A DNA stretch of 24,009 nucleotides from a virus. Location: positions 1 through 24,009 of IMG/VR virus record IMGVR_UViG_3300032265_000415. One strand, given 5' to 3'. This document shows positions 6,983 to 18,983 of the stretch, piece after piece (position 1 is the stretch's first letter; each line of letters opens with the position of its first letter). The position numbers were made by a program, and so were the translations under genes. The notes below the pieces were generated by a model. It searched no databases and had not been told where the DNA came from. It was given only the letters and a program-made list of their open reading frames with translations.

Positions 6983-9900
6983 TTAACGGGAAGCTTGGCG
7001 TTTTGTTTCGGCGACTTGCTTAAGGAAATCTTGAGCTAGCTTAGCGCGTTGTTGTTGTAGCTGGGTTAACTGTTCACGTTTTTGAACCGCAAACTGCTGT
7101 GGGCTCATGCCGGGGGGTAAACGCTGCTCTTTAACTTTGCGAATTTCGCCTGACAAGGCATCTAAGTTAGCCTTCATGGTAGCCGCCATATTTCCAACAC
7201 CAATTTCTTTTTCGTACGTTTTACCGTACGCTGCGGCTTCTTTCTCAGCGCCCTTCTCCACTAAATCTTTATAGGTAGCCGATCTTTGCGATGCTTGTTG
7301 TAGCACCTCATAGGCACGCATAGTAATGCCGCCAGCATCTTCAGGCTGGAACATCTGACCAAACACAGGCAAGTCGGCCATTGTGCCGTCAGGTTTTACA
7401 TTTTCACTTGACGCAAGCATAGGGTTAACTATCGAAGCAACTGTCGTAAAAATACCGCCTAGATAGCTCTTGGCTAAGTAGTCTAATTTAATAGGGGAAA
7501 TCCCTAACATGTCGCCAAGCATCTTAGCCGGTTCGCTGGTTGTGTCGTAGGCACGTTTGCCGGGTTCCATTTCTTGTATACGCTTGCTTTCAATGTCCCG
7601 ACCAGTATACAAAGAACGATTTGCTACAAGTTCAATAGGCGCTTTAATAGCGGTAGGAACACCTAAAGGATTTGTAGCATTTAGCACAGCCTTAATCGCA
7701 TCAAGACCTTCTCTAGCTTTCTCATCACTGTAAGCCATGTTTACTACGGCTTCGGGCAGCGCTTTAAAAATATAGCCTGCTTCAAATGGTATAGGCAATC
7801 TAAATGCTTCTTTACCTTCTTTGCCCATTCCGGGCACAAACCAATTCAAATACTTCTGTTCAGGTGTAGCGTTCTTGTAAGAATCGTTATCTTGTTGTGC
7901 AATTGCATACAGAATCGACATACCCGCAATCATGGTGCCACGTTTGATTAACTTGTTTTGTAAGTCCAGCTTTTTAGCGTACGGCATCTTGCCAGTAAAC
8001 GCTTTGTACATTACGTTGTAGCCTTGGATAGCCGAGTTAAAGAACGGCACCATTGTATTAACCCAGTGCATAGATGGAGAAGCGCCACGAGTATTAAAGT
8101 TCATGGACTCCATCGTGGCAATCTGCGCCTGCATATCCGTCAAGCCTTGCTTGCGGAAGCTATCATAAAGAACTGAACGAGTAGAAGCATCTGCCTCAGT
8201 CGCCATCTTATCCATGAAAGCCAAAGCGCCAGTCACACTAGCTTTACCTGATTGAAGTCTAGTTACGATTTGGTTTAAATCTTCAGCACGACCTGTGTAA
8301 ATTTCACCGCCCAAAATACCTGACTCTTGCAAGTGTTTGTTAGTTAAACCAGCGCCACGTACAGCGTTGTGGACTTCCTTAAGTGATGACAGAATTGGTA
8401 CAAAATTACCGCCTGTTGTTAGCCAAGCAGACATTGGATCACGAACTAACTGCTTGTAGGCATAGAAAGGATTGCGTGTAACGCCCTTACGGAGCCAATT
8501 AGCTGGCATACCCATCAAACGCACAATACCCGGAAGCTGGGTTGGAATACCTTCCATACCCTTAACTAAAAGCTGTGGGCTAATATCGCTAAACTCAGCG
8601 TTCTTAGAGGTATCAATAATGGCATGATAGTCTTTGCCGTTAGCTTTAAAACGAATAACATCAGGGCCAATAGTGCCTTCACCTTTACGAATCTCAGCAA
8701 TACCTAAATCTTGTAGAGTTCTAGCTACGCTGGCAGTTGCATTATTACGCAAAGCCATTTCGGTAATCATATTGGTGTTAGCAACAGAAGATTTAAAAAA
8801 GTCTTGAATTTTTTGATCGCCGCCAACTAACTCGTGTAAATATGGCTGGTCTTTTAATGTACCAATACGGATAGGGTTTTCAGAACCGATAATTAAATCT
8901 ACATTGCCGCCACGTGAACGATAGTACGGTATATAGTTTTTGTTTTTAAACTCAGCGGCTTTTTCTTTAGCAATGTATCCTGAGTCAGCTAAGCTATCAA
9001 TTAAGCCGTTATTGTATTCTTGATATGTCTTAAACGCATTAACAAATGCGGGGTCAGCATCGCCTGACTTCTTGGCAGCTTCCAACATAGCGGGAGTAAT
9101 GTTAGCGCTAATCTCTCCATCGGACACCAACTTCTTATATCCAACACGCTCAGCACGTTTAGCTGCAGCATAGGCGGTAAACATTTCATTTAACGCTTGG
9201 GGATTACCCTTAGTAGACTGCAACAACTCTTCAAGAACTTGCTTCATACCGGGGCCACCGGAAGCACGAATAGTCACTTCGCCTGTTACTGGGTCTTTAG
9301 CAAATTTACGTGCGCCGTTAACAACAGTCTCGCTAGTAATATTTGTGCGCTGACCATGCATCAGCAAGTTGTACATCATCTGCGAGCCAGCGCCTTCTTC
9401 GCCCATACGACGCCAAATTTCTTTAAGCGGGGCTAATCGGTCAACAAACTGCGTATTAAAAGCAGCTAAGTTACCCTTCAAAGACTCTTTTATACCCTTA
9501 GGCTTAGCAACTAAATGCCCAGCCAACTGCGCTAGTGGGTCATTCTCGTTTTCAAACTTAGCTTTACGATATGCGGTCTGTAGGCCGGTTTCTCCTGTGC
9601 GCAACTCGCTTTTACCGCTTAGCATATCTCTAGATTTTTTAAGCATAAATAGTAAATCACTGTCTGTGACTTTACTAAACTCAATTAGGTTATGCTTTTG
9701 TAGCCATTCTCTTATTTGACCAATTAATTCTTTTATAAAACGGGCAGACTTTTGAATAAATGATTTGTCATCTAAACGGCCTTCTTCTACGTGTGCAATA
9801 AGCTCTCGTATTCCTACTAACTTTTCTTCTTCAGGAGTTAATTTAGAGTCGCTGTTTTCACGTGCTTGACGAATAGCCCGAACAACTTTGTCCATAACGC

Positions 9901-12900
9901 CCATTTCACGAGCAACATGAAGCATACCATTTTTATGCTGAGCTTCCAGTCTATCTGCTAAACGCAGTAAGCCTTCTTTACCAAGCAAACGGTCAACACC
10001 AAAGTGCCCAAATGCTTCGTGGGCTAGTGTTTTTTGGAAGTCTAAGAGGTCATAGTGCGTATTTCCAACAGCAACAATAGTGCCGTCTTTCAATACAGCG
10101 CCGTTCATTTCTCGACGTTCTGTTTCCGGAATTTGGTTTTTTACATAGTCAGGTAAACCGTCAAATGAATCAGCGTATTCAAAACGTATACCCTCAGGTA
10201 ATCCAGCCTTAAACTTTTCAGCAGCAGCAGCGGTTTCTTTTACGTTTGCGGTAAACTTACCTTTTGTTCCCAGTCTGTAGGCATTACCCAAATCATCTCT
10301 AGTAAAACGAGGGCTATACTCAGGTTCATACTCACGTTCAGAACGCAAACCTTCTTCAAGTTCTTTAGCCGCATTAGCTGTACCGCTTTTTAAAGGCTTT
10401 AGTCTTTCTTTACGAGCAGGAGCATTACCGGCTATTGCTAACGCACGTTCGCCTTTAGCAAGCTTTTGTTGCTCAGCTAAGTTTTCTTTTTCAAGCTCTA
10501 GTTCTTTGTTTAAGGCATCAACAACGCCCTCAAACTTTTTCCTGTCTTTTGTTTTTGGGCTTGCAAGTCTACGTTTCTTATCATTAACTTCAATACGCTC
10601 TTCAAGCGCTTTAATATAGGCTTTAGAATCAGCAATAATGTCTTTGCGCTTGGGTTTATCTAGTCCAAGTTGCTTACGGATAGCTTGCATTTCCTTAGCG
10701 CCTTCAGCGCTTTCTTCACGCAGCTTGGCACGTTTCTCTTCTGTAGTAAGTGGGGCTTTCTTTTCTACTACACGCTTTTGTAGAATTTCATCTTTAGTGC
10801 CGGGCAATACTACGTTGGTACCAATAACTTCTTGACGAATGGTAGGTTCAGCGGCTTTCTTTTCAAACGTAGCTTGTTCAGCTACACGTCTTTCCTTAAC
10901 ACGTTTCTCTAGCGCAGCTTGGTTAGCAACTTCAATCCTGTCAATTTCTTTGCTAATAGGGGCGGCTTGTTCGCTAGTTACTTTGTTCTCGTCAAGGGCT
11001 TCTTTTAAAACCTTACGAGTCATCTGAACAGAACGCTTATTGTTCTCGCCTTCAATAGTAAAAAATTCTCTGTCACGCGCACGAATGTCTTCTAAATACT
11101 TTTCAGCTTGCGTTACAGTTGCTTCTAGTTCTTTTACGTATTTTTTGTAGCCTTCTTTAAACTTGCCTTTTTCGCCGGCGGCAACAGCTTCGTATTGTTT
11201 AATCTTTTCTTTTGTCTGAGCAATATCAAACAACAGTTTGTATTCAAGCTGGGTACTAAATAAACTACGCAACGCATCGCTTCTAGATATTGCCGCTTGT
11301 TTATTCTCAGCAAAAGATTCTTCTAAACGAGACGTTAAACGCTCTGTTAACGACGTTTTTGTTGGCACTGCAACTTTAGCTTTTGTTCCACGAAGAGATT
11401 TTAAAATCTCTGTTTCTCTTTCCTGAAGTTTTTCAATTTTACTTAAATGCGCTTCCCTCAAACTTATAGATTTGTTAATGCGGTTATCTATAAAGTCTTT
11501 TGTATAGCGTTTTACATCGGCTTCGCTTGGTTTGTATACTTCAGGCGTTGGCTTTTTACTTTCGTTTTCAAGCTGTAATCTTACTTTTTCTAATTCAACA
11601 AAAGCTTCTTTATTTGTTTCACCAAACAACGGTTTTTTAGCTTTTTCTAGTGCAGCTTGCGCCATCTTAATAGCGTGCTGTAACTTAGTTCTTTGGATGC
11701 CGACAAACTTCATAAAGTTGGCCGGGGTAGCCCGCACTGTAGCAAGAGGCGCTAATTCTTTTTCACCAAACAAGCTACGTTGATCTGGACTTATACCAGA
11801 CGGAGCATAGCGCTCCATATCAATCTCTTCTTGCTTGGCACGCTCGGCTTCAAGACGAGCATTTTCTTTACGGCCTGCTTCTACTTCACGACGTAGTGCT
11901 TTAACTTTTTCAAGATTGGGGCTTTTCTTATTTAACTCTTCTTTAAGGGCTAATGTAGCGTCACGTTCTTGGCGTAGATTAAATCCTTCGGCTGGACGGA
12001 AACGACTTTCACCTTGCTCGTACTTGGCTTTAATACCCGCAAGTTGTTTTTCTAATTGAGTAGGTTCTTCTTCGTTGATACGTTTTAACACAGATTCATT
12101 TTTGTTAGCTACTACTTTATCCAACGTATCTTTAAGGTCAAAAGCCAGTTTTAAAGACTCATCAGTAGTTAACAGTTTTTGTTTAGCTTCGGCACGTTTA
12201 GCGTTAACTTCATTAAGAGAGTGCGTAATATAATGCCCAATTACACCCGGCGCTGCGTATGGAGAATTAATCGGTTCTGGAGAACGCAAGTCGTCTACTA
12301 AATCAGTTAACGTATCATGTGCTCTACGCTGTTCAACAACAGCTGAAGCTAATCTGTTTCTTGGGCTAACCTTTTCAGGTAACGGCTCATTGGCATTAAT
12401 TAAGTTACGTTCTTTAGCACTAGCATTTACTGCATCAACCAGCTGACCAACTAAGTGCTGGTCTTTTGGACCGAAAGTATCAGTTAACTCTTTAAGACGT
12501 TTAGCGTGTGCTTTTTCTTCTGCCGTTGGCTCAAACGCCAAGCCTTGTTGTACTGGCGCAGGAGGCTCTTCTAACTTCTCACGAGCTGTTTTGGCTTTTT
12601 CTAACTTATCTAAGGCAGCATCAAACTTGGCTCTATCAAAAGACTCGCCACTATATTTTTGTAAATCGGCATTATGCTTCTTGATTTCTTTATCAAGCGC
12701 ATCCATTTTTTCTTTTACTGTTGGCTCAGGTTTTGGTAGAGCCTCAAGTTGTAAATCTGCGGCTTCTAAAGACTTACGTAGGGTTTCTAAACTACCTGAT
12801 AATTCTCTAGCTTTTTGTGTGTCGCCAGCTTTTATGGCTTGTTGCATCTGAACTTGTACAGCCTCAACTTGTCTTTCAACACTAGGCTTAAACGTATTCT

Positions 12901-14383
12901 CAAGCATAAAGCGGTGTTGCAACATCTCGGCTTTATCTGCCTGTTCTTTAGCGGCGCCAGTTTCTCTTTCGCCTACAGTAAGTGTGCTTGGTGCACCGGG
13001 TAGTTCAGTAGCTTTAGGGGTTTCGCCTAATTGAAGTTCACGTGCTTGTTGTATCTGTTCTTGTCTTGCTGCGGTAGCTTGTTCACGTTGTGCTTTTAGT
13101 GCTTCTAAACGACCTTGTAAAGTTTGCGCTACTTCGCCTTCGGCAACAGGTGCCTGTGGCACACCGGGTCTTTTATTAATTTCTTCAAGTTGTCTTTGTA
13201 ATTCGTTAAGCTGGTCTCTACCAGCTTGCTTTTCTTCTTTAGGTAAACCCTTACCTTTAAGTGCTTCTTTAATATCATTCATCTGCTGAATGATTGGTTC
13301 ACGCTCTGCTTGTAATTGTGCTTGACCTTCGGGGCTAGCATAGTGTTCTTCTAAAACACCCGCTTGTTGTTCTCTAGCAATACCAGTTCTTTGCGCTTCG
13401 CCTTTAGCCCGTGCATCATCAATAAGCTTCTTAGCACGAGCAGGTTGTCCAGCATGTAGTAAACCAAAAAATGGAGCAACTAAGCCCATCTCTTTAGCGG
13501 ATTCTGTATATTGATTTAGCGCTTCTGGGCTAAACATTTCTTGACCGGCAGCGTAGCGTTGTCCTGCTTGACCGACTGTGGACATCAATGTACCCGCACC
13601 GGCAGCTTCTGTTGTACCTTTTAAAACACTCATTACCCTACCGCTAATTTGTGCAGTAGCATCAGCCGCTTTAATTTCACCACTTAATACTTTAGGTGCT
13701 AGTAATTGGGCTTCTTGAGTAGCCGTTTTTAAAGCAAAGCCTTTCATAACTCCGCCAACGATAGCACCGCCTAAAGAATCAACGGCTGTTTGGGCCATTG
13801 CAGGAATTAAAGCACGACCGTAATCAGGCTGTTTTCCAGCTTCTTTTTGAGCAGTAATGTTTTCACCAAAGTGAATAGGGAAGTTAGTTGCAGCAAACGC
13901 CGCAGCGCCTGCAAGAGGGGCAGCAATTAATGTTTCGGGGGCAAGAGCAGAGGCAGCAGCGCCAGCTGCAACAGGGGCTCCATATCTACCGGCTACGCTA
14001 CCAACAGCTTGTCCAACAGGCTCCGTGATATATTTGCTGAGTCCGGTACCCAATAAAGATGTAATACCTTGACGTTTTGCAACACCAATATCGGCTTCTG
14101 TAGTTGGCTCAAATTGACCAGCGGCTTCTTCTTTAGTTTCTTTACCGTATTTAGCAATATCTTCACTACCAAACAAATTGCCAAGACCTTCAAGCGCAGA
14201 ACCTGCGCCGCCTTTAAAACTAGACTTGAGAGCTGGCATGAGGCCAGTCTTTTCTTTATGCTTTGCGTATTCTTCAGGAAAAGCCTCGGGAAATTTTTCT
14301 TGAGCATATTTAAGCGCTTGCTCTTCGTTCATCCCCTCCGGGACTTTTGTATATCCACCATCAGGTAGTGTTAAATACGGCAT
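6983..14383 (-). CDS. Giant virion/ejection (polyvalent) protein, zincin-like motif plus LPD38-like region
   Basis: At 2466 residues this is by far the largest gene. Order of parts: a tag at 1-36 with LPDGG and VPEGM; Gly/Ala-rich hydrophobic segments at about 120-310 that could enter membranes; long charged coiled-coil stretches at about 315-1340; then a putative zincin peptidase with HEAFGH at 1455-1460 and RELIAH at 1526-1531, whose E1527 could be a third ligand. After about 1620 comes a globular part, and at about 1900-2330 a region like large polyvalent protein-associated domain 38, including MNFNTRG at 2094-2100 and VPFFNSAIQGYN. The C-terminus is again coiled coil. Such proteins travel in the virion and are thought to be ejected; peptidase activity is inference. 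It is the last gene of the minus block. AGGAAAA precedes the ATG. Confidence 0.85.
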   Translation of the reverse strand: MPYLTLPDGGYTKVPEGMNEEQALKYAQEKFPEAFPEEYAKHKEKTGLMPALKSSFKGGAGSALEGLGNLFGSEDIAKYGKETKEEAAGQFEPTTEADIGVAKRQGITSLLGTGLSKYITEPVGQAVGSVAGRYGAPVAAGAAASALAPETLIAAPLAGAAAFAATNFPIHFGENITAQKEAGKQPDYGRALIPAMAQTAVDSLGGAIVGGVMKGFALKTATQEAQLLAPKVLSGEIKAADATAQISGRVMSVLKGTTEAAGAGTLMSTVGQAGQRYAAGQEMFSPEALNQYTESAKEMGLVAPFFGLLHAGQPARAKKLIDDARAKGEAQRTGIAREQQAGVLEEHYASPEGQAQLQAEREPIIQQMNDIKEALKGKGLPKEEKQAGRDQLNELQRQLEEINKRPGVPQAPVAEGEVAQTLQGRLEALKAQREQATAARQEQIQQARELQLGETPKATELPGAPSTLTVGERETGAAKEQADKAEMLQHRFMLENTFKPSVERQVEAVQVQMQQAIKAGDTQKARELSGSLETLRKSLEAADLQLEALPKPEPTVKEKMDALDKEIKKHNADLQKYSGESFDRAKFDAALDKLEKAKTAREKLEEPPAPVQQGLAFEPTAEEKAHAKRLKELTDTFGPKDQHLVGQLVDAVNASAKERNLINANEPLPEKVSPRNRLASAVVEQRRAHDTLTDLVDDLRSPEPINSPYAAPGVIGHYITHSLNEVNAKRAEAKQKLLTTDESLKLAFDLKDTLDKVVANKNESVLKRINEEEPTQLEKQLAGIKAKYEQGESRFRPAEGFNLRQERDATLALKEELNKKSPNLEKVKALRREVEAGRKENARLEAERAKQEEIDMERYAPSGISPDQRSLFGEKELAPLATVRATPANFMKFVGIQRTKLQHAIKMAQAALEKAKKPLFGETNKEAFVELEKVRLQLENESKKPTPEVYKPSEADVKRYTKDFIDNRINKSISLREAHLSKIEKLQERETEILKSLRGTKAKVAVPTKTSLTERLTSRLEESFAENKQAAISRSDALRSLFSTQLEYKLLFDIAQTKEKIKQYEAVAAGEKGKFKEGYKKYVKELEATVTQAEKYLEDIRARDREFFTIEGENNKRSVQMTRKVLKEALDENKVTSEQAAPISKEIDRIEVANQAALEKRVKERRVAEQATFEKKAAEPTIRQEVIGTNVVLPGTKDEILQKRVVEKKAPLTTEEKRAKLREESAEGAKEMQAIRKQLGLDKPKRKDIIADSKAYIKALEERIEVNDKKRRLASPKTKDRKKFEGVVDALNKELELEKENLAEQQKLAKGERALAIAGNAPARKERLKPLKSGTANAAKELEEGLRSEREYEPEYSPRFTRDDLGNAYRLGTKGKFTANVKETAAAAEKFKAGLPEGIRFEYADSFDGLPDYVKNQIPETERREMNGAVLKDGTIVAVGNTHYDLLDFQKTLAHEAFGHFGVDRLLGKEGLLRLADRLEAQHKNGMLHVAREMGVMDKVVRAIRQARENSDSKLTPEEEKLVGIRELIAHVEEGRLDDKSFIQKSARFIKELIGQIREWLQKHNLIEFSKVTDSDLLFMLKKSRDMLSGKSELRTGETGLQTAYRKAKFENENDPLAQLAGHLVAKPKGIKESLKGNLAAFNTQFVDRLAPLKEIWRRMGEEGAGSQMMYNLLMHGQRTNITSETVVNGARKFAKDPVTGEVTIRASGGPGMKQVLEELLQSTKGNPQALNEMFTAYAAAKRAERVGYKKLVSDGEISANITPAMLEAAKKSGDADPAFVNAFKTYQEYNNGLIDSLADSGYIAKEKAAEFKNKNYIPYYRSRGGNVDLIIGSENPIRIGTLKDQPYLHELVGGDQKIQDFFKSSVANTNMITEMALRNNATASVARTLQDLGIAEIRKGEGTIGPDVIRFKANGKDYHAIIDTSKNAEFSDISPQLLVKGMEGIPTQLPGIVRLMGMPANWLRKGVTRNPFYAYKQLVRDPMSAWLTTGGNFVPILSSLKEVHNAVRGAGLTNKHLQESGILGGEIYTGRAEDLNQIVTRLQSGKASVTGALAFMDKMATEADASTRSVLYDSFRKQGLTDMQAQIATMESMNFNTRGASPSMHWVNTMVPFFNSAIQGYNVMYKAFTGKMPYAKKLDLQNKLIKRGTMIAGMSILYAIAQQDNDSYKNATPEQKYLNWFVPGMGKEGKEAFRLPIPFEAGYIFKALPEAVVNMAYSDEKAREGLDAIKAVLNATNPLGVPTAIKAPIELVANRSLYTGRDIESKRIQEMEPGKRAYDTTSEPAKMLGDMLGISPIKLDYLAKSYLGGIFTTVASIVNPMLASSENVKPDGTMADLPVFGQMFQPEDAGGITMRAYEVLQQASQRSATYKDLVEKGAEKEAAAYGKTYEKEIGVGNMAATMKANLDALSGEIRKVKEQRLPPGMSPQQFAVQKREQLTQLQQQRAKLAQDFLKQVAETKRQASR

Positions 14384-14409: not shown

Positions 14410-16215
14410 TTACTTGTATTCTTTTCCGCCAGTTGGCGCTGTACTACTTAGTAGCCCGGGTATAAATTGTTTTTTTAAACCTTCTTCATCTAAACCACTA
14501 GTTTCAAGATAGTGCTTTTTCAAAGAAGGACTCTTACTAAGTATCTCGTATTTTATCGTATTAATTGCCTGTTGACGTTGCGCTGGATTATTTAAATCAA
14601 AGTTGGAGTATTTAGTCATTCCTTTGATTCGGTCTTCAGCCGTTTTATCTAACCCAGCTATCATTTGGTCGTACTTGAGAGCTTGCGCGTTTTGTGCGGC
14701 ATTAGCGTAATGTTGTTGATATACCTTGTTTCTTTCCATAGCAGCTTGAGCAGATAGTCCTGCGGCTTCACCAGTCATGTTAGCTTTTTGTGCATCTGCA
14801 TAAGACTGAAGACCCTGTAAACCACCAGCGCCTATATTAGACAGACCGTACGGTGAACGCTGTCCAGCAATACCTAAACCAGCAGCCATCAAAGCCAAGC
14901 CGGGTGCTTGCTTTCTAGATTGCTCTAGTCCTGCCATGTACTTATCAAGCATAGATTGAGAACTGTCGGTTGTTGAAGGTGCTGTCGGTGTTGTAGGCGC
15001 TGTTAATGTGGTTTGATCTTTGTTAGTTACAGGAACTACCGGTTCTGCTGGCGCTGCTGGTGCGGCAGCTGGTTTATTTAATTCTGGCGCTACTTGTGCC
15101 GCTGAATATGCTTCTGGGGTTGAAGCTCCAAAATAACTTTTTGCGCCCTTAGCAATACCGCTAATACCTTTCTTTATATCAACGCCCTTATTTTTTAAAC
15201 GTGTATATGCAAGTTGTAAATCGCGGCCAGCTTCAGATTCTGCTGCTTCTGTTGGAGGATAGTAGTAACCCTCATCATCCATAGGCAAATCCCCGCCTCC
15301 AGCTAAAGAAACAATACCGCCTTGAGCAAGATTAGCTACGTACATGCGGGTTTCTTTAGGCACGGCTTTTTCTTTGCTGCCGTGTTTAAGCCACTTATCT
15401 ACGTTGCCCGGACCCCAGTTGTAAGCCATAGCAGCTAACTTAGGGTCTTTGTATTTGTGTTCTAAACTAGCTAAATATTTAACACCGCCGTTAATATTTT
15501 CATATGGGTCATTTAGATTTGTAACGCCAAGTTCTTTAGCTGTTTTAGGCATCAACTGCATTACACCGGTAGCGCCAGCTTTAGATACTGCATTAGCTGG
15601 GTCTTTGTGGCCGCCAGTCTCTTTGTGCATTACGTGTTGTACTAAATCCCAAGATGCGCCATGTTTTTTAGCTGCTTCGGCAGCAATATCTTTAAATGTA
15701 CCAGTTGCTGCAGCTATTCCTTGTGGTGCTGCAGTTGGAGTAATAGAAGAATAAGGTGTCAGTTTTGGGTTAGCAACAGCCATAATGCCAGCACCTAAAC
15801 CACCTAAGTCGCCTTGACGTGCCATTAACGAATCTAGCTCTTCTTGGTCTGTCTCTTGTTCATCTTCATCAGGGTCAGTAAAACCACCAGTAGCAAAAGA
15901 TACTAAACCACCACCGGCACCCATCGCAGGTTCGCCCATAGATTCCATAGTAGGAGCAGGTAGTTGGTCTATGCCAGCTTGAGGTTGCGGTAAATCACGA
16001 GCAAGCATTTGGTCACGCACTGTAGGTTGTTTAGCGCCCATTTGCGCTTGTTGACCTTTGTTTGCGGCTTCTAATTTATCGCGCTGTTGTTTAGCGGACA
16101 TGGCAACAGCCATAGGCAAAGAATTATCTTTTCCCTGTAAAACAGCTAATAAACGAGAGTCAGGGAAGATGCGCGGATCGAGCGCCATCTTATACATTTG
16201 TTCCATGCCGAGCAT
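14410..16215 (-). CDS. Virion-associated lytic transglycosylase (SLT domain), 601 aa
   Basis: Residues about 170-295 form an SLT-type lysozyme-like domain. HKETGG has the likely catalytic E199; GATGVMQLMPKTA is at 214-226; AMAYNWGPGNV is at 262-272. This enzyme class cleaves the MurNAc-GlcNAc bond of peptidoglycan, here probably to open the wall locally during DNA entry. The N-terminal 100 residues are Gln/Ala-rich and disordered-looking, with a GG motif at 101-111 (GGGLVSFATGG); a second GG motif is at 299-308. The C-terminal half is Pro/Ala/Thr-rich (about 370-420) and then helical and Gln-rich. It lies between the Gln-rich protein and the giant protein, as expected for a core/ejection component rather than the lysis endolysin, which is separate at 21739-22332. 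Confidence 0.88.
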   Translation of the reverse strand: MLGMEQMYKMALDPRIFPDSRLLAVLQGKDNSLPMAVAMSAKQQRDKLEAANKGQQAQMGAKQPTVRDQMLARDLPQPQAGIDQLPAPTMESMGEPAMGAGGGLVSFATGGFTDPDEDEQETDQEELDSLMARQGDLGGLGAGIMAVANPKLTPYSSITPTAAPQGIAAATGTFKDIAAEAAKKHGASWDLVQHVMHKETGGHKDPANAVSKAGATGVMQLMPKTAKELGVTNLNDPYENINGGVKYLASLEHKYKDPKLAAMAYNWGPGNVDKWLKHGSKEKAVPKETRMYVANLAQGGIVSLAGGGDLPMDDEGYYYPPTEAAESEAGRDLQLAYTRLKNKGVDIKKGISGIAKGAKSYFGASTPEAYSAAQVAPELNKPAAAPAAPAEPVVPVTNKDQTTLTAPTTPTAPSTTDSSQSMLDKYMAGLEQSRKQAPGLALMAAGLGIAGQRSPYGLSNIGAGGLQGLQSYADAQKANMTGEAAGLSAQAAMERNKVYQQHYANAAQNAQALKYDQMIAGLDKTAEDRIKGMTKYSNFDLNNPAQRQQAINTIKYEILSKSPSLKKHYLETSGLDEEGLKKQFIPGLLSSTAPTGGKEYK

Positions 16216-16225
16216 AATTTATTCC

Positions 16226-17347
16226 TTAAGGTGTACCAAATGCTTTGTATGCGCCTAAACCAGCTAAACCCAAACCTGTTGCTTGGCTCAAAGTACTTGG
16301 AGCTGCTTGATAAGATTGAGTTGTTGTTGCTTGCGTTGGTAATCCACGCAACATGGCGTTCATAAAAGACAGCTGTTGTTGTGGGTATTGTTGTGCAGTA
16401 GCGTAGTTTTGAACAGCCTGATTAATAGTATTCTGTTGCTGTTGTTGTTCTGCAGTACCCGCTGTCATTTGCGCAGATGCAATGCCTTGTTGCGCCGCTA
16501 GTTGTTGCCCGCCCAAAGCACCTAATTGATTAGCTGCACTTAAACCTTGACCGATACCCTGCATACCTGCTTGCTGCCCTTGCAGACCTAAGCCTGCACC
16601 ATACTGCATAGCTTGTTGTGCCTGTTGGTACGCTTGGTTGTATCCTTGACCAATGGCTTGTTGTTGTGCCATCAAGGTATTTTGTTGATTCAATGCTTGT
16701 TGTAACGCATTACGTGAACCGCCGAAAGCGCCAGCTTGTGTAGCTGCACCTTGTTGTTGAGCACCTTGAATACCGCCTTGTTGAGCAATCATGTTAAGTT
16801 GTGGCTGTAACGATTGCTGCACGTACGGGTTCATAAAAGCACCCATAGCATACGGGTTTGTTGCCATCTGGTTGTAACGATTACCAGCTTGCGCTTCTTG
16901 ACCAGCTAAACCAAAAGCCGCAGCACCGCCAGCACCAGTAGCTTGAGAAGCAGCTTCATATTGACCGGGTACTTGCAAGTTGGCCGTGGTGTTCATAGCT
17001 TGATTTTGCATTGGACTAAAAGGTGCTACATAGTCCTGTGGGTTTTGACTATATGGTACGTAAGGTTTTACGCCATTAATTTGTACAGAACCATCTTCAT
17101 TTGTTGAAGTGTTAAATAACTGTTGTTGAGTTGCGCCAAGCATTGTTTCTGCATAAGGACGCAAGTAGTCAGGTATGTTTGTATTTTGAACTGTAGTTTG
17201 TGTAGGCGCTGCAGGAGGAGGAGGGGGAGGAGAACCGCCACCACCGCCACCAAGAACATAACCGCCGTTGGCTTTTTTATAGGTAGCAGAATTGCCTAGG
17301 GTTTCACCTAATGCGTAAAGCTCCCGTCTTGAGTAAGTTGTTTTCAT
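16226..17347 (-). CDS. Gln/Ala-rich structural protein, probable internal virion component
   Basis: This 373-residue protein has strongly biased composition. A short basic N-terminus (residues 1-25) leads to GG motif ANGGYV at 26-31, then six Gly (33-38) and six Pro (40-45). From about residue 95 it is dominated by Gln, Ala, Gly, Asn and Tyr, with many short QQ and AQQG repeats and EQQQQQ near the end. No enzyme motif is seen. It starts 4 nt inside the upstream GNAT-like gene (ATGA overlap), so translation is coupled, and it lies between two core/ejection genes. A structural role in the internal core or tail is inferred from the context. The six-Pro run would be a strong ribosome-stall site. 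Confidence 0.8.
   Translation of the reverse strand: MKTTYSRRELYALGETLGNSATYKKANGGYVLGGGGGGSPPPPPPAAPTQTTVQNTNIPDYLRPYAETMLGATQQQLFNTSTNEDGSVQINGVKPYVPYSQNPQDYVAPFSPMQNQAMNTTANLQVPGQYEAASQATGAGGAAAFGLAGQEAQAGNRYNQMATNPYAMGAFMNPYVQQSLQPQLNMIAQQGGIQGAQQQGAATQAGAFGGSRNALQQALNQQNTLMAQQQAIGQGYNQAYQQAQQAMQYGAGLGLQGQQAGMQGIGQGLSAANQLGALGGQQLAAQQGIASAQMTAGTAEQQQQQNTINQAVQNYATAQQYPQQQLSFMNAMLRGLPTQATTTQSYQAAPSTLSQATGLGLAGLGAYKAFGTP
17213..17251 (-). repeat. Poly-Gly/poly-Pro codon tract with hairpin potential
   Basis: Six Gly codons followed by Ser and six Pro codons (residues 33-45 of the Gln-rich protein). Gly codons (GGN) and Pro codons (CCN) can pair at two of every three positions, giving an imperfect GC-rich hairpin inside the coding region near the gene start. 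Confidence 0.7.
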
Positions 17348-17757
17348 ATTTTTGTCTCTACAATTCTATACCGCTCTTCAAATCCATAACGGCTCCACAA
17401 ACGGGCAATTGATTCTCTAGCTGCACCCTGTATTTTAGTAGCTCCGTTAGCCTTTAGTAAATCTTTAAATTGCCCAAATGTGTTTTTATTTGAAATTAAT
17501 TTACCGCCAATAAAAGTAATAAACGCAACTCTGTCATTTGGATAATTTAAAAACGATATTGTCGCTGCTCCATGCAGTTCCCCGTTTTCATCTACTGCTA
17601 CCACCAAAAGCCATTGCCCCGAAGTAACGTAAACGCGTACCTGATCCAACGTGTAATCGTCTCCACAGTAGTCAATAGCATTTGCAATATACTTTTCAAC
17701 CATTGGCCAAGCTTGACTAACGTACTGTACAGGAACATGTTTTATCTCTAAGCTCAT
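17344..17757 (-). CDS. GNAT-fold-like protein, probable virion assembly/internal component
   Basis: This 137-residue protein matches the N-acetyltransferase (GNAT) fold pattern: an alpha-helical start, the strand WLLVVAVDENGELHGAATI at about 49-67, strand VAFITFIGGKL, a helix, and ending with ARLWSRYGFEERYRI, where YGFE is a common GNAT end motif. The usual acetyl-CoA loop (R/Q-x-x-G-x-G/A) is not clear, only IGGK, so catalysis is doubtful. Proteins with this fold occur among virion-internal genes of T7-like podoviruses; that comparison is from memory. The gene overlaps both neighbours by 4 nt (ATGA), fixing it in the 409-aa to 373-aa operon and supporting a structural or chaperone role over metabolism. 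Confidence 0.78.
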   Translation of the reverse strand: MSLEIKHVPVQYVSQAWPMVEKYIANAIDYCGDDYTLDQVRVYVTSGQWLLVVAVDENGELHGAATISFLNYPNDRVAFITFIGGKLISNKNTFGQFKDLLKANGATKIQGAARESIARLWSRYGFEERYRIVETKI

Positions 17758-18983
17758 GCAGGTAGGTATTTGTCTGCGTTAATCTTTGGGGCTTGATTCT
17801 TTTTGCCTGTACGGGCTTTACGAACCTGAGCCATCATTGAATAGAGCTTCTTAGCTCCTGCATCACTTGAACCATTACCTAAATGACTTACTACATCTGC
17901 GGGTACTACAAATTCATTATCTGCTAAACGGGCTGGCTGGCGTGAACCAATACGTGCTGGAATACTGTCGCTCATTCCGTCGCCGGGGCCTCTAAGCATT
18001 TGACCGCCATCAGAGTATGAACCCAAAGAAGCCAAACCACCACCAGCCATATTAGCTGTCATTTCGCCTGTCAATGGATTTGTATTTGGTTCGTAAGATG
18101 CTGCAGTCTGTTGCGCAGAAGTTGGCATTTGGGTAGGAGTAGCGTAATATGAACGTTGCTGTTGGCTTTGTGGATACATATCGCCACCCATAAAATCAAC
18201 AGGCTCGGAATTAGGGTCAAGTAAACCGCCGTCAGCATATCCGGGAACCATGCCGCCTTCAGCCATAGTTGGTTGATACACTTGTGGATATCCAGCGCCA
18301 GCACTAGCTGGTGTTGGCTGAGTTACTCTATTTTGATACTGTGCTTGGTAATGCGGGTTAGGCGGGGTTACTGTATCTGGGTTGTAGTGTTGCGGGTCGT
18401 ACCTAAAATCGGCTAAAGAACCGCCATTCCAGTTAACAGCTGAGTTTGGAGGGATACCATATTTGGATTTATCTTGAGCCATTAAACCAAGAGTACCCAA
18501 ACCAGCAGCGCCGTACATGGCTTGTGTACCTGTAATACCATTACCTAATGTACTAAATAAACCAGCGGTTTCGCCGGCTGGGACAGCATTAATTGAAGAC
18601 GCTATTTCAACTGGAGTCATACCGGCATAGCCAGAAGCAAGGGCTCCGGGAGTTGTACCTAAAGTACTAGCAGCTCCAGTAAAACTACCACCGGCAGCAG
18701 CTACGCCTTCAGCGCCTTGATATAGACCAGAAGCACCAATTCCAGCGCCGCCAATACCGCCCATAAGAGCATTACGACCTACATCCTGTCCTGTAAGAGC
18801 GGCAACACCACCACCAGTCAAAGCACCAATACCAGCACCTGTAGCCGCCGCCGCGCCTGTAGCACCAAGCTCTTCTACCAAATAAGGCGCAGCAGCGCCG
18901 TCAGTCATAACCGTAGCGGCCAAAGCCGCAGCTATCGGTAAATAGCTCTCAAAACCGCCAGATTGTCCGCCGCCGCCTGCCAT
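17754..18983 (-). CDS. Gly-rich virion protein with a tape-measure-like C-terminal motif
   Basis: This is a 409-residue protein. Residues about 15-170 are Gly/Ala-rich with glycine-zipper-like hydrophobic stretches and could insert in or lie against a membrane. The middle is Pro/Gln/Tyr-rich. Two GG motifs follow: AEGGMVPGYADGG at 241-253 and AGGGLASLGSYSDGG at 313-327. The C-terminus has GPGDGMSDSIPA at 332-343, LADNEFVVPADVV at 353-365, then LGNGSSDAG. The order GPGxGxSDSIPA...EFV is one I know from tape-measure proteins of long-tailed phages. Here the gene lies in a short-tail-like core cluster, so I infer an internal or ejection protein. The RBS (AAAGGAT) precedes the ATG. Translation is coupled to the GNAT-like gene. 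Confidence 0.8.
   Translation of the reverse strand: MAGGGGQSGGFESYLPIAAALAATVMTDGAAAPYLVEELGATGAAAATGAGIGALTGGGVAALTGQDVGRNALMGGIGGAGIGASGLYQGAEGVAAAGGSFTGAASTLGTTPGALASGYAGMTPVEIASSINAVPAGETAGLFSTLGNGITGTQAMYGAAGLGTLGLMAQDKSKYGIPPNSAVNWNGGSLADFRYDPQHYNPDTVTPPNPHYQAQYQNRVTQPTPASAGAGYPQVYQPTMAEGGMVPGYADGGLLDPNSEPVDFMGGDMYPQSQQQRSYYATPTQMPTSAQQTAASYEPNTNPLTGEMTANMAGGGLASLGSYSDGGQMLRGPGDGMSDSIPARIGSRQPARLADNEFVVPADVVSHLGNGSSDAGAKKLYSMMAQVRKARTGKKNQAPKINADKYLPA

Follow-up and report, generated by a model that had tools for sequence, protein, structure and literature searches.

A short glycine-pair motif recurs in predicted ejection proteins of uncultivated phages

Introduction

Why would neighbouring phage genes for different inner-virion proteins carry the same short glycine-rich string? 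The question arises from a 24,009-nucleotide stretch of viral DNA (IMG/VR record IMGVR_UViG_3300032265_000415, positions 1 to 24,009; hereafter the window), in which a 601-residue transglycosylase (TG601), a 373-residue protein (p373) and a 409-residue protein (p409) are encoded close together. A first-pass annotation of the sequence had noticed five strings of the frame GG[LIMY][VA]x3-9GG in these three proteins. It proposed that they mark the contents of a single virion compartment for docking, packaging or processing. It also considered the motif to be new, and we found no relevant match for the motif or for the leader strings described below in open PMC text. Here we examine the frame in the window, in homologues and in independently chosen loci, and weigh what the motif may do.

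Results

Each of the five strings lies at the residues reported: 101-111 and 299-308 of TG601, 242-253 and 314-327 of p409, and 26-31 of p373, the last followed by a glycine run. Shuffling the same three proteins gave an expectation of 0.09 sites, and none of 5000 shuffles reached the five observed. The five-site pattern was chosen post hoc, and we therefore retested it on homologues and independent loci, where the enrichment held. Searches with p409, TG601 and p373 as queries recovered 157 IMG/VR loci from uncultivated phages, 76 of them non-redundant. Across these 76 loci we counted a widened frame, GG[ILMVFY][VAIS]x2-8GG, against shuffled expectation. The p409 family had it 77 times against an expectation of 8.05, the TG601 family 18 times against 0.3 and the p373 family 27 times against 4.25; part of the last count comes from p373-TG fusion proteins of some relatives. 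An 803-residue structural protein had 0 against 3.05 expected, and all other open reading frames (ORFs) together had 33 against 17.45. The unit [FYLM]AxGG was likewise enriched in p409 (214 versus 22.6), TG601 (40 versus 2.9) and p373 (64 versus 18.3). The small protein p137, encoded between p409 and p373, had no motif in 45 homologues. Conservation in homologues and excess over shuffled sequence, the checks proposed with the original observation, were thus both found.

The homologues define a sharper consensus, [MYFL]-A-x-G-G-[IVLM]-[VAI]-x-[FYL]. In many cases x-[ND]-x-G or another AxGG comes next, and copies often occur in tandem. Counting from the residue after the glycine pair, each family taken separately keeps positions +1, +2 and +4 and varies at +3. 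In this consensus the second glycine pair of the frame first described is optional. The GGYV site of p373 does not belong to the motif: few homologues keep it, and it marks the end of a separate conserved N-terminal leader.

The strongest single support for the motif comes from an independent sample of 52 loci picked only by this leader, in its SRREL form. These loci contained 68 motifs, against about 1 expected, at gene positions -3 and -2 (p409-like), 0 (p373, fused) and +1 and +2 (TG). The motif was found in 0 of 42 ORFs at position -1, 0 of 24 at -4, 0 of 60 distant ORFs and 0 of 37 on the opposite strand. A second sample, 74 non-redundant contigs picked by a strict form of the motif in one ORF, agreed: a relaxed motif occurred 53 times in the four upstream genes (about 1 expected) and in 0 of 240 downstream, distant or opposite-strand ORFs. 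The proposal of a signal common to proteins of one compartment therefore holds in that the motif is conserved, order-specific and confined to the p409, p373 and TG positions, although the p373 site on which it partly drew is not a member.

We examined specificity with a strict DNA pattern encoding A-x-G-G-I-V-A-F-A-x-G-G. This pattern matched at least 120 viral contigs in IMG/VR, whereas scrambled and reversed residue orders each gave 0 matches. Eighty loci from these contigs were examined, and in them the pattern lay in-frame within ORFs mostly of 400-1100 residues. These counts bear on whether the sites are simply flexible hinges, glycine-rich linkers that bind nothing specific and only allow domains to move, or to unfold when they pass the portal. 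The sites are indeed glycine-rich, disordered and always between domains. A linker needs no fixed order, however, and the motif keeps particular hydrophobic positions from family to family. The order specificity means that a plain flexible linker cannot explain the motif, and we consider the hinge explanation unlikely.

When 257 Gb of bacterial and archaeal genomes were searched, the same pattern matched once, within an acetyltransferase-like protein of a Lokiarchaeota metagenome-assembled genome, and we treated this match as chance. Among 74 non-redundant instances, GGIVAFA is written in 67 distinct DNA spellings, which indicates selection on the protein rather than the DNA; this codon diversity rules out a common DNA element or recombination site. 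We give almost no credence to the view that the motif has no function and is an over-read pattern in drifting glycine-rich, low-complexity sequence. The after-the-fact choice of the five sites and the loss of the p373 site speak for that view, but it is refuted by the order-specific and position-restricted conservation, the enrichment in homologues, the 67 encodings and the single cellular match. We conclude that the motif, which many highly dissimilar uncultivated phages carry, is a real, selected, order-specific and position-restricted short linear motif of linkers that acts at the protein level.

Translated searches (tblastn) of 50,697 phage records with a strict-motif protein, motif peptides and leader peptides gave no match, to which the BLAST low-complexity filter may contribute. 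TG601 aligned to cultured phages over approximately its lytic domain, and no homology was found outside that domain; comparisons at the nucleotide level with cultured phages gave nothing useful. A distant relative, Pra-JY27, has only the degenerate units NYAEGGALRA and GYADGGFLAP.

TG601 illustrates how the motif is placed (Table 1). An AlphaFold2 model (mean predicted local distance difference test score, pLDDT, 64) is helical at both ends, with an N-terminal domain at residues 1-60 and C-terminal helices at 417-590, and has the lytic domain (about 174-297) in between. The two motif copies fall in segments of pLDDT <50 between these confident domains, and the p409 copies are unstructured in a poor model, in agreement with the earlier placement of the sites in linkers, not folded domains. 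Only G81, A100, G102, G103 and P258 are invariant among 23 homologues, and three of these five lie in the motif. A100, G102 and G103 persist while the downstream sequence is swapped, in line with the suggested check on whether sites are kept as flanks diverge. Copy 1 is retained in relatives whose lytic domain is lost or replaced by another kind, and in some the motif brackets a different lytic domain. Among 28 proteins with a lytic domain, the motif occurs at most 100 residues before the domain in 22, just after it in 18 and on both sides in 15, where shuffling gives a chance of about 1.3% for each 50-residue window. The 'before' count includes proteins selected by the strict motif, and the 'after' count is the cleaner of the two. 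Upstream of copy 1, the GIDQLP element is possibly a degenerate copy, judging by related phages that carry full copies at its place (for example, MADGGLAALP).

Placement at domain boundaries, flanking the lytic domain, would suit a processing site at which a protease of the phage or of its host cleaves behind the glycine pair, in adenovirus-type or double-glycine style, and frees domains at head maturation or after ejection. A hydrophobic-A-x sequence before GG also resembles the sites of GG-specific proteases. Thirteen long relatives were searched for candidate enzymes. An HslV-like peptidase gene (phrog_1040; for example, L279:474-908) was found in 3 and was absent from 10, and the four other peptidase kinds looked for (Peptidase_S78, CLP_protease, Peptidase_S49 and C39) gave no match in any of the 13. 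The strongest conservation in TG601 also lies beyond the glycine pair, in F at +4 (P4' of a GG cut), the most conserved residue of the motif, and V at +2, which is unusual for a simple GG cut. Of the three functions first proposed, processing is thus disfavoured, and we regard it as fairly unlikely.

A further possibility is that GGIVxF strands zip together, or that after ejection they enter the host envelope. Short hydrophobic strands flanked by glycine, present in multiple copies in several co-located proteins, would fit such self-assembling or membrane-active behaviour. Membrane insertion is difficult to reconcile with only about five hydrophobic residues and with the acidic stretch that follows in the TG family; self-pairing of the strands may be an alternative. 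We judge this explanation as a whole improbable. The acidic stretch itself is low-complexity sequence (FTDPDEDEQETDQE, positions 15841-15882) immediately after copy 1 of TG601, and acidic residues are enriched at the same place in relatives; in the TG family the D+E fraction is 0.29 after copy 1 and 0.14 before it.

p409 has Ala/Gly-rich N-terminal helices and two motif copies, the second of which stands just before a nearly invariant C-terminal module. Residues 330-391 of p409 align with a GPGxGxSDSIPA...GEFVVP module in proteins of Caulobacter phages that carry a tape-measure annotation. Unlike those proteins, p409 is short, lies in an ejection-type gene cluster and carries motif copy 2 directly ahead of the module.

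The p373 leader is a separate element. Homologues of p373 carry at least three exchangeable leader types (SRREL..., LPExAF... and KHSGW...), each ending in a glycine run that is at least 90% conserved; in p373 itself, Gly35-37 reach this level. The SRREL pattern matched at least 120 contigs, and in the leader-selected loci examined it begins at residues 3-30 in 74 ORFs. It is found mostly on p373-type proteins and also on p409-type proteins, with both kinds carrying it in one genome (L216). Two contigs (L318 and L387) have it on two genes each, one of which is unmatched by family profiles. The leader with its glycine run is probably a second tethering signal, and the swappable leaders are candidates for a packaging leader.

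Table 1. Genes, domains and motif sites of the cluster in the window
Feature	Position	Strand	Remarks
p409 gene	17754..18983	-	409 residues; Ala/Gly-rich N-terminal helices and conserved C-terminal module
p409 motif copy 1, residues 240-253	18225..18266	-	MAEGGMVPGYADGG; G252 at least 90% conserved in homologues
p409 motif copy 2, residues 312-327	18003..18050	-	MAGGGLASLGSYSDGG; G315, G316, L320, G321 and Y323 at least 90% conserved, G326 invariant (52 homologues)
p409 C-terminal module, residues 326-409	17757..18008	-	GGxMLxGPGDGMSDSIPA...EFVVPADVVS; most invariant region of the family
p137 gene	17344..17757	-	Small conserved protein between p409 and p373, many relatives; motif-free, internal negative control
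p373 gene	16226..17347	-	Member of a DNA-ejection-protein family (phrog_4287)
p373 leader, residues 1-38	17234..17347	-	MKTTYSRRELYALGETLGNSATYKKANGGYVLGGGGGG; carries GGYV and Gly run (17234-17266); YSRRELYALGE-...-Gly run type
TG601 gene	14410..16215	-	601-residue inner-virion protein with SLT lytic transglycosylase domain (Pfam SLT, 8.9e-23)
GIDQLP element of TG601, residues 81-86	15958..15975	-	Upstream of copy 1; G81 invariant, L85 and P86 at least 90% conserved
TG601 motif copy 1, residues 100-111	15883..15918	-	AGGGLVSFATGG; A100, G102 and G103 invariant, F107 at least 90% conserved (23 homologues); pLDDT <50
SLT lytic domain of TG601, residues 178-282	15370..15684	-	Pfam; AlphaFold2 pLDDT about 88; between the two motif copies
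TG601 motif copy 2, residues 296-308	15292..15330	-	LAQGGIVSLAGGG; directly after the lytic domain; pLDDT <50

We compared the cluster proteins with known families. Against phrog_4287 ('DNA ejection protein'), 29 of 33 p373 homologues matched (best 1.8e-31), as did p373 of the window (4.7e-6). TG601 matched PHROG lytic tail and transglycosylase families, and its Foldseek matches included Slt and MltF as well as two T7 structures, one of the core protein (7eyb) and one of the ejectosome (7k5c). Most strict-motif proteins match neither phrog_4287 nor PHROG 342 ('internal virion protein with endolysin domain'); some match one of these or lytic tail families. The gene row p409, p137, p373, TG601 and a 2466-residue protein is the same in the window and in relatives, and portal, capsid and SU10-type adaptor genes are present in a 67-kb relative. 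Family matches and gene order suggest that the cluster encodes ejection-type inner-virion proteins.

Other features of the row are noted briefly. The 2466-residue protein (positions 6983-14383) is a polyvalent protein with an LPD38 domain that adjoins the cluster; the motif is scarce or absent in its homologues. In some relatives the p373-like and TG601-like regions form one fused protein (L223:3313-6090), with motif copies at the junction. The motif-free p137 has a mean column identity of 68%, and no family assignment was obtained for it. Its position had raised the idea of a GNAT-like homologue of T7 gp13, which was dropped when profile comparison and Pfam gave no support. Searches of solved structures with p137, p373 and p409 profiles returned nothing useful.

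Discussion

We tentatively favour, at somewhat below an even chance, the interpretation that the motif is a strand-like docking or stapling element of ejection proteins. The glycine pair would open a short extended strand, and the hydrophobic residues at +1, +2 and +4 would bind in a groove on one shared partner, putatively another ejection protein or the portal/core. The motif would in this way staple ejection proteins together in the head, after ejection or at both stages, and the flexible glycine pairs would let each protein thread through the portal. Several points weigh against this interpretation. No partner domain was identified for the motif, AlphaFold2 gives no fold for it, and the model of p409 is poor (pLDDT 54). 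Of the 28 proteins with a lytic domain, 10 do not have the copy just behind it. That these proteins are located in the head and ejected is a prediction from PHROG labels, fold and gene order. Finally, T7 lacks the full motif: gp14, gp15 and gp16 contain only GGIT, at gp16 residue 158.

T7 nevertheless offers a parallel. Its gp16 consists of a transglycosylase domain (residues 1-156) and then an extended 'molecular tape' (residues 157-228) that cements gp15 (PMC8954989). TG601 similarly has an extended segment immediately behind its SLT-type lytic domain, with motif copy 2 in the place of the tape, and in both systems genes for internal virion proteins are clustered in a row. The systems differ in that the lytic domain of gp16 is N-terminal whereas that of TG601 comes after a helical N-terminal domain, and in that the motif described here is present in multiple copies and common to several proteins. 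Because T7 is without the motif, the parallel suggests that TG601 may work like gp16, not that the two belong to one family.

A second comparison is the T4 capsid targeting sequence, a short conserved peptide on diverse internal proteins packaged into the head (PMC3012670). The GGIV motif is likewise short and conserved on diverse proteins, and the SRREL-type leader is N-terminal. The motif differs from the T4 sequence in being internal (residues 90-140 or later) and repeated, and in that no prohead protease of a common type (S78, CLP, S49 or C39) was found in the 13 long relatives. The motif is also distinct from the annotated families: the window proteins match PHROG 4287, 342 or similar families over their folded regions, and the motif does not define those families.

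A broader proposal, which we hold as doubtful, is that the motif belongs to an 'assembly code' shared by a large group of phages, most of them uncultivated. Exchangeable N-terminal Gly-run leaders, together with internal A-x-G-G-[IV]-[VA]-x-[FYL] staples, would recruit and align unrelated inner proteins and so allow domain swaps, for example of lytic enzymes.

Ejection proteins have been described as some of the most variable proteins of the virion (PMC8954989). An element of ten residues that remains constant while its surroundings change would give access to the recruitment, ordering and re-assembly of these proteins. The motif would also serve as a sequence tag for ejection proteins in unannotated viral genomes, and it would offer defined residues for mutation.

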